Assembly (NCBI RefSeq): GCF_037975245.1
Contig: NC_092570.1
Coordinates: 14,033,001-14,097,000, forward strand
Length of the DNA: 64,000 nucleotides
DNA from: Apostichopus japonicus
Taxonomy: Eukaryota > Echinodermata > Holothuroidea > Aspidochirotida > Stichopodidae
Direction of reading: 5' to 3'
The translations under genes and the position numbers were made by a program. Shown in pieces: positions 12,477-15,400 of the stretch. Under the pieces are notes generated by a model, which saw nothing but the letters and a program-made list of their open reading frames with translations, did not search any database and was not told the DNA's origin. The first letter of the stretch is position 1. Every line of letters starts with the position of its first letter.

Positions 12477-15400
12477 TTAATACTTGAATGCTCCCCACTT
12501 GGCTGCCCTGATGATGAAATCTTTGGTGTGTGTATCCTCAAAGGCTAGAAAAGACTCTGTCTGTACGACTTCCGTCAAGTGATTGACGCAAAACTTGAAG
12601 CAGAAATCGTGAAGGTCCTGTCAAACAAAGGAAAAAGAAACAAAGTCTGGAGAAATGTTACAAGGATTCCACATTCAGAGCATGAAATCTCTGTCTCAGA
12701 AAAATTCTTGTTAGCATTGAGGGTTGATTTTATTCATATGTTTGAGAGGGATAAACTTACACTAGCCTCATATTTGCAGCCCAGTGTTAAGGAGGTACAC
12801 ATGATATGCTAAAACATTGACTAGCCTCATATGTGATTGTTGCAGCCAGAAATTGCAGTGAGGTATTGAAAAGAGGCAAGGGATATATTTATATTAGTCT
12901 CATATTGGATTGATGCAGCCAGTAAATGCTCTTAGGTGTTAAAAGAGGGACACATGGTAGGCTAAAACATACACTAGCCTAATAATATGTTTATTGCTGG
13001 CAGTTTATCGGTTGGATGTTCAAAGAGGGACAAGGGATATGCTAATACTTACACTAGCCTCATATTTGATTGCTGCAGCCAGTATATCAGTTAGATGTAG
13101 GGACAAGGGATATGCTAATACTTACACTAGCCTCATATTTGATTGCTGCAGCAAGTATATCAGTTAGATGTAGGGGCAAGGAATATGCTAATACTTACAC
13201 TAGCCTCATATTTGATTGCTGCAGCCAGTATATCAGTTAGATGTAGGGACAAGGGATATGCTATACTTACACTAGCCTCATATTTGATTGCTGCAGCCAG
13301 TATATCAGTTGGATGGAGGGACAAGGGATATGCTAATACTTACACTAGCCTCATATTTGATTGCTGCAGCCAGTATATCAGTTAGATGTAGGGACAAGGG
13401 ATATGCTGATACTTACACTAGCCTCATATTTGATTGCTGCAGCAAGTATATCAGTTAGATGTAGGGACAAGGGATATGCTAATACTTACACTAGCCTCAT
13501 ATTTGATTGTTGCAGCCAGTATATCAGTTAGATGTAGGGACAAGGGATATGCTAATACTTACACTAGCCTCATATTTGATTGCTGCAGCCAGTATATCAG
13601 TTAGATGTAGGGACAAGGGATATGATAATACTTACACTAGCCTCATATTTGATTGCTGCAGCCAGTGTATCAGTTAGATGTAGGGACAAGGGATATGCTA
13701 ATACTTACACTAGCCTCATATTTGATTGCTGCAGCCAGTATATCAGTTAGATGTTAAAAGAGGGACAAGGGGTATGCTAATACTTACACTAGCCTCATAT
13801 TTGGTTGCTGCAGCCAGTGTATCAGTTAGATGTAGGGACAAGGGATATACTAATACTTACACTAGCCTCATATTTGATTGCTGCAGCAAGTATATCAGTT
13901 AGATGTAGGGACAAGGGATATGCTAATACTTACACTAGCCTCATATTTGATTGTTGCAGCCAGTATATCAGTTAGATGAAGGGACAAGGGATATGCTAAT
14001 ACTTACACTAGCCTCATATTTGATTGCTGCAGCCAGTGTATCAGTTAGATGTAGGGACAAGGGATATGCTAATACTTACACTAGCCTCATATTTGATTGC
14101 TGCAGCCAGTATATCAGTTAGATGTTAAAAGAGGGACAAGGGGTATGCTAATACTTACACTAGCCTCATATTTGGTTGCTGCAGCCAGTGTATCAGTTAG
14201 ATGTAGGGACAAGGGATATACTAATACTTACACTAGCCTCATATTTGATTGCTGCAGCCAGTATATCAGTTAGATGTAGGGACAAGGGATATGCTAATAC
14301 TTACACTAGCCTCATATTTGATTGCTGCAGCAAGTATATCAGTTAGATGTAGGGGCAAGGAATATGCTAATACTTACACTAGCCTCATATTTGATTGCTG
14401 CAGCCAGTATATCAGTTAGATGTAGGGACAAGGGATATGCTATACTTACACTAGCCTCATATTTGATTGCTGCAGCCAGTATATCAGTTGGATGGAGGGA
14501 CAAGGGATATGCTGATACTTACACTAGCCTCATATTTGATTGCTGCAGCAAGTATATCAGTTAGATGTAGGGACAAGGGATATGCTAATACTTACACTAG
14601 CCTCATATTTGATTGTTGCAGCCAGTATATCAGTTAGATGTAGGGACAAGGGATATGCTAATACTTACACTAGCCTCATATTTGATTGCTGCAGCCAGTG
14701 TATCAGTTAGATGTAGGGACAAGGGATATGCTAATACTTACACTAGCCTCATATTTGATTGCTGCAGCCAGTATATCAGTTAGATGTTAAAAGAGGGACA
14801 AGGGGTATGCTAATACTTACACTAGCCTCATATTTGGTTGCTGCAGCCAGTGTATCAGTTAGATGTAGGGACAAGGGATATACTAATACTTACACTAGCC
14901 TCATATTTGATTGCTGCAGCCAGTATATCAGTTAGATGTAGGGACAAGGGATATGCTAATACTTACACTAGCCTCATATTTGATTGCTGCAGCCAGTATA
15001 TCAGTTAGATGTAGGGACAAGGGATATGCTAATACTTACACTAGCCTCATATTTGATTGCTGCAGCCAGTATATCAGTTAGATGTAGGGACAAGGGATAT
15101 GCTAATACTTACACTAGCCTCATATTTGATTGCTGCAGCCAGTAAATGGAAGGAGTTGTTGACTGTGATGCCCTGTTTGATGATTCTTTCGCATAACTTC
15201 TTAAGATGAGTTTCACAGTAGGCGTTCGCCAAGTCCATTAGACCTTAAATTAAGGAAAGATTTCATGATGAGAACCCCACCACACTGAATTTACAAGAAC
15301 ATATCAACATCTTACTTAATACGTCAAGTTACCATTGAAACCAAGAATAGCTATAGAAATATATCTAGCATCCAACACAGTTTGCTTCATGACATAGCAA

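Follow-up and report, generated by a model that had tools for sequence, protein, structure and literature searches.

How does a gene reach its last exon when the donor in front of it is repeated dozens of times inside the following intron, and how could such an intron have come about? Both questions were raised by a minus-strand gene found in a 64,000-nt stretch of the sea cucumber Apostichopus japonicus (C10:14033001-14097000, hereafter the window), whose genome assembly comprises 671.6 Mb in 35 contigs.

The gene and the array in its last intron

The gene was assembled from 13 coding exons, with GT-AG borders in 12 out of 12 introns and an unbroken reading frame of 537 aa ending in KWGAFKY. 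Pfam matches on this ORF were found in the order RCC1 repeats (4.5e-69), BTB (1.2e-22) and a BACK-like C-terminus (1.6e-4), the last of these being weak (22.1 bits against a cut-off of 20.9), while the final 90 aa displayed a weak match to SPOP chains (best E 0.033). From this domain order and from the human sequence, we take the gene to be of the RCBTB type. The assembly bore out the coordinates of exon 12 (15243-15113) and of the last intron (15112-12618) that had been proposed in a preliminary description of the window. This intron measures 2495 nt; the 11 others range from 262 to 1061 nt, the one upstream of exon 12 being 262 nt long. The relevant features are the following.

12477..24125, minus strand: RCBTB-type gene, 13 coding exons, 537-aa ORF with RCC1 repeats, BTB and BACK
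15113..15243, minus strand: exon 12, 131 nt, the last 32 nt being the exonic part of array unit 1
12618..15112, minus strand: last intron, 2495 nt, GT...AG, phase 0
12477..12617, minus strand: exon 13, final 46 codons and stop, missing from any isoform made with a distal donor
13006..15144, minus strand: 29 intact array units of 72, 73 or 79 nt, 15 distinct sequences, AGT/GTAAGT in 29 out of 29
~12730..13005, minus strand: four decayed units at the acceptor-side edge, GTAAGT in the last one only (donor at 12760)
15107..15112, minus strand: GTAAGT, the true donor of exon 12, which keeps the frame
15034..15039, minus strand: first decoy donor, use of which would lengthen the exon by 73 nt and place a stop 34 nt before the junction
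12618..12760, minus strand: 143 nt from the last copy of the donor to the acceptor, an estimate of the intron before amplification

About 95 % of the last intron is a tandem array, which TRF detected with a period of 73 bp at 13026-15144 (94 % matches, score 3817). With TACTGGC, derived from the exon, as the start of each unit, it could be divided into 29 near-identical and four decayed units, 33 in all, in agreement with the earlier account of an intron made almost wholly of ~33 copies of a 73-bp repeat. The start of the array coincides with the real exon-intron border: unit 1 consists of the final 32 nt of exon 12 and the 41 nt of intron that follow, which include the true donor, and it matches the consensus at 73 out of 73 nt. 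That the unit joins the end of the preceding exon to its 5' splice site, as previously described, was confirmed for all 29 intact units; one out of four decayed units also has an intact donor. On the minus strand between 15200 and 12600, AGTGTAAGT was found 30 times; 29 of these copies belong to intact units (true donor included), the remaining one to the last decayed unit (12760). Downstream donors with the same letters as the true donor from -3 to +6 are provided by 28 intact units and one decayed unit. Besides each intron's own donor, GTAAGT was present 29 times in the last intron (2495 nt) versus twice in the other 11 introns together (7540 nt), an excess for which chance is excluded. CTAAC and CAG had been attributed to every unit, which proved too general: CTGCAG and CTAAC were each kept in 26 out of 29 intact units, and both of them together with AGT/GTAAGT in 23. 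The exact arrangement CAG/20 nt/GTAAGT occurred 25 times in the last intron.

All 15 scored matches of a two-unit query to the 671.6-Mb genome sat at the array locus, this number being a lower bound since only the best candidates were scored and very common words were skipped. Among viral contigs, exact 27-mers revealed no relatives of the array, in a set that may lack records close to the genome of the window. A search for an ORF hidden on the plus strand of the array gave 80 codons as the longest stop-free stretch.

Two further features of the window may be mentioned. Just upstream of the gene, positions 24573-25303 hold a 365-bp tandem duplication (two copies at 98 %, TRF), which on the plus strand resembles by eye the start of a retroelement gag. 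At 32295-33140, a minus-strand stop-free stretch of 282 aa matched Abhydrolase_3 (9.1e-38) and belongs to an esterase-like gene.

Origin and growth of the array

Along the array, the 15 sequence types of the 29 intact units follow one another as AAABCADEFGHIBCAJEKCALAEMNGHIO. When this order is shifted against itself by 9 or by 16 units, three variant-bearing units in each case coincide with identical ones; types K, M and N are combinations of variants otherwise seen apart. We read this order as one of repeated blocks and recombinants, such as would be produced in a minisatellite by unequal exchange, and the block structure suggests, for the one assembly considered, that copy number has changed in the past.

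Decay is confined to the acceptor side and units 1 to 3, next to the exon, are identical, as would fit an array growing or being homogenised from its exon end; in unit 1, the exonic half is shielded by coding constraint in any case. As GTAAGT has gone from three out of four decayed units, donors were not kept in the decayed edge. The 79-nt type C displays CTTTTA where three out of four decayed units display CTCTTTT or CTCCTT, and because of this resemblance a length of 79 nt may represent an older form of the unit.

An origin of the array in exon 12 is supported by the perfect agreement of unit 1 with the consensus and by the location of this exon within an intact ORF with known domains. A tandem duplication over the border of exon 12 and intron 12 would have copied the last 32 exon nt together with the first 41-47 intron nt, and unequal exchange would then have expanded these copies into a 33-unit minisatellite filling the intron. 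Judging from the 12760-12618 span, the ancestral intron would have been ~143 nt long. The donors would have multiplied as passengers of the duplicated piece and not through selection for more donors. Across the 29 units, an invariant run of 23 nt surrounds the donor (P ~0.03 for random placement of the variable sites); this hints weakly, and post hoc, at constraint on the donor region, as the test was selected with the data in view and the units are related by descent, and selection on the donors is not claimed here.

Strength of the signals and choice of the donor

Splice signals were scored with donor and acceptor matrices built from this one gene (12 sites each), which are small and rough. 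In leave-one-out scoring the array donor reached 1.8, less than any other of the 12 donors in the gene (next 4.4), and 86 out of 396 decoy GTs scored at least as high. Its exonic half is poor; pairing with U1 is possible for the intronic half, GTAAGTAT, over +1 to +8. As an acceptor, the array CAG scored 1.2, close to 1.16, the 75th percentile for 392 decoy AGs, and the real acceptors ranged from -1.0 to 9.2 in leave-one-out scoring, 11 out of 12 lying above 1.2 and one (-1.0) below. The 17 nt upstream of this CAG contain 8 pyrimidines, those of the 12 real acceptors 8 to 14. Given this weak score, 20-nt pseudo-exons from array units appear unlikely, and so does a chain of them.

A human study (PMC9225289) describes the choice of the spliceosome between two donors. 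In five minigenes, each with a pair of identical strong 5' splice sites and under exon definition, splicing took place exclusively at the upstream site. Natural pairs of near-equal strength followed intron length, a long downstream intron favouring the upstream site and a short one the downstream site, with a switch at ~250 nt; without strength matching, preference went to the downstream site, in ~60 % of the 4171 pairs overall and in each of the four intron classes. After weakening of both identical sites, larger exons were mainly skipped. If the strength-matched human rule applies to this animal, the first donor should be used here, the downstream intron being 2495 nt long. The upstream intron (262 nt) is near the ~250-nt boundary, which counts against a simple choice of the first donor, and since the true donor is the lowest-scoring of the 12, the donors may compete or exon 12 (131 nt, frame-shifting) may be skipped.

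The explanation that we hold to be probable is that of a minisatellite seeded on an exon-intron border, the decoy donors of which are mostly silent while the first donor is favoured by exon definition. Splicing would most likely still take place at this first donor (15112), which sits 131 nt from the acceptor of exon 12; with a 2.5-kb intron downstream, exon definition would favour the donor closest to this acceptor. Later donors would be expected to be used at a low level, their products all being the same truncated protein. The array would then presumably be neutral, and by-product transcripts would be expected to decay.

Predicted products were computed for the true donor, for seven out of 29 decoys and for intron retention. 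An in-frame TGA is located 39 nt into the intron, ahead of the second donor. Any distal donor, or intron retention, would add 12 residues after KYEAS and then stop, with the loss of the 46 residues of exon 13. It had been foreseen that use of a distal donor would remove the C-terminal exon, and this stands, as does the predicted stop; it follows 12 codons and not ~13, however, and lies inside the same 73-nt unit and not in the next. The distance from stop to junction is 34 nt for donor 2 and 107 nt for donor 3, and is larger for later donors. Nonsense-mediated decay is governed by a stop-to-junction rule of 50-55 nt, under which donor 2 mRNA would escape (34 nt) and mRNAs from later donors (at least 107 nt) would not, those from donor 3 onwards being candidates for this pathway. 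As a single truncated protein would be shared by all distal donors, the number of units could change amounts of product but not types of protein, and the notion of isoforms depending on copy number, put forward in the preliminary description, is narrowed to amounts. A single 20-nt pseudo-exon would alter and shorten the C-terminus too.

Growth of the array might itself have decided the outcome. In an intron of ~143 nt, intron definition would have favoured the downstream copy of the donor after the first duplication, and the protein would have been truncated; each further unit would have lengthened the intron until, past ~250 nt (two extra units), exon definition restored the first donor. Expansion from ~143 nt to 2.5 kb would in this manner have masked the decoys and rescued the gene. 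Were this so, long arrays would be safer than short ones, and selection on splicing would act as a ratchet, favouring growth and punishing contraction. We consider such a rescue doubtful.

It is unlikely, too, that distal donors contribute to splicing appreciably and in a tissue-dependent manner, with the array tuning RCBTB output through a truncated protein (donor 2) and through decay (donor 3 onwards). Such a poison switch would agree with the 28 downstream intact donors being equal to the true donor at -3 to +6, with the weakness of the latter for its gene and with the position of the stop on either side of the decay rule (34 nt before the junction for donor 2, 107 nt for donor 3); downstream repeat donors are moreover employed in the human IFI6 precedent (see below). 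The loss of GTAAGT from three out of four decayed units argues against it, as does the preference for the upstream of two identical donors before a long downstream intron, reported for human in PMC9225289.

We attach little probability to the array being a U1-binding platform, the donors of which would recruit U1 and thereby suppress premature intronic polyadenylation or raise transcription. The pairing of GTAAGTAT with U1 would permit this, and AATAAA is present at 12995 and 12734, but both of these signals fall within decayed units. The titration of U1 that had been suggested earlier found no support.

Equally improbable is an assembly artefact in the number of units. Miscounts could be concealed by the identical units 1 to 3, but the 15 distinct unit sequences form ordered blocks next to a decayed edge, and the 2.1 kb of intact units would fit inside long reads. 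The window is free of N, and the variant units, like the decayed edge, speak against an error by simple duplication.

A chain of 53-nt mini-introns and 20-nt micro-exons removed stepwise, or recursive splicing intermediates, hardly deserves credence: although most units display the spacing GT...CTAAC...CAG, with 25 exact occurrences of CAG/20/GTAAGT, the acceptor remains near the 75th percentile of the decoys and under 11 out of 12 real acceptors, 53 nt is far below the smallest intron of the gene (262 nt), 20-nt exons would shift the frame, and CAG and CTAAC are each missing in three out of 29 units.

Other arrays and known systems

Arrays were surveyed by TRF in 20 stretches of 10 kb, taken in 1-Mb steps on contig C10, and in the window, 264 kb in total, with a period of 20-400, at least five copies and removal of overlapping TRF rows before counting. 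GTAAGT was found in one out of 18 arrays (13 in the 200 kb sampled, five in the window), namely that of the RCBTB intron. Three sampled arrays displayed at least 10 GTRAG matches, two of them at L018 3494-4332 (34 matches) and L027 2850-3709 (10 matches), and the third, L027 6029-6640, was chosen for analysis (L027 is C10:17500001-17510000). It is a 28-bp array with 20 GTGAG donors on the sense strand, mostly AAG or GAG/GTGAGA, which scored 8.3-12.4 versus 1.8 for the RCBTB array donor. The array lies in a putative intron of the plus strand, flanked by stop-free stretches at 5744-5893 and 6681-6842, and its unit is unlike the donor of the putative exon itself, AAC/GTAAGT. The peptide joined from these stretches matched no Pfam family, and the gene is considered putative. 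A genome rich in minisatellites may thus give rise to decoy-donor arrays as a by-product that is tolerated.

Other repeats were encountered along the way. The window contains several repeats with TCCCAAGCGTGGGCACAA-like sequence at 46894-48756 (periods of 114, 274 and 386 bp, TRF) and a 24-bp array of ~30 copies with a higher-order period of 93 bp at 1680-2389 (TRF). One sampled stretch, L021 (C10:11500001-11510000), is composed over its entire 10 kb (1-10000) of a 22-bp satellite (~454 copies, 84 % matches), which we would guess to be centromeric.

Known donor-bearing arrays were sought in literature lying mostly outside subscription journals, in which work on IFI6, TERT, intron gain and Epstein-Barr virus was found, and the absence of others is not implied. 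In Epstein-Barr virus, the W repeats are ~3-kb units with true repeated W exons that are spliced together. As in the intact part of the RCBTB array, the tandem units have splice sites; the difference resides in the size of the units and in the joining of real exons. The human IFI6 array is likewise positioned at an exon-intron border, its 12-bp unit is in frame and use of its donors adds residues, whereas the 73-bp unit of the RCBTB array is out of frame and contains an in-frame TGA, and the array as a whole fills the intron. This human minisatellite (IFI6, or 6-16) reportedly "provides multiple splice donor sites", in the words of a title attributed to Turri et al. 1995 (NAR 23:1854). In a later paper, two downstream repeat units are described as donors giving rise to three mRNA species (PMC4526556). 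Both arrays are tandem repeats carrying splice donors, the later donors of the RCBTB array being putative. The RCBTB donor array is a real structure, of a kind with known precedent in IFI6.

Splice signals are also spread within genes by tandem duplication in cases of intron gain, described for the multi-copy 24-bp AGGT repeats of fission yeast and for potato RdRp (PMC4974935), and for Drosophila (PMC2891723). In the RCBTB array, by contrast, the duplicated piece spans an exon-intron border, which points to the enlargement of an existing intron and not to a new one. VNTR6-1, in intron 6 of TERT, is an intronic tandem repeat of 38-bp units with a reported effect on splicing; it differs in that this effect is proposed to proceed via G-quadruplexes, and the term "splice site" is absent from the main text of the source (PMC11830802).

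With dozens of donors that share their sequence from -3 to +6 and are distinguished almost solely by where they lie, the array constitutes a natural test of spliceosome choice, in which a cross-exon proximity rule is separated from a cross-intron one, donor strength being no confounder. It indicates that an ordinary minisatellite can seed many decoy splice signals in a gene with an intact reading frame. Should isoforms track the number of units, a further case of a repeat array setting splicing would join IFI6.
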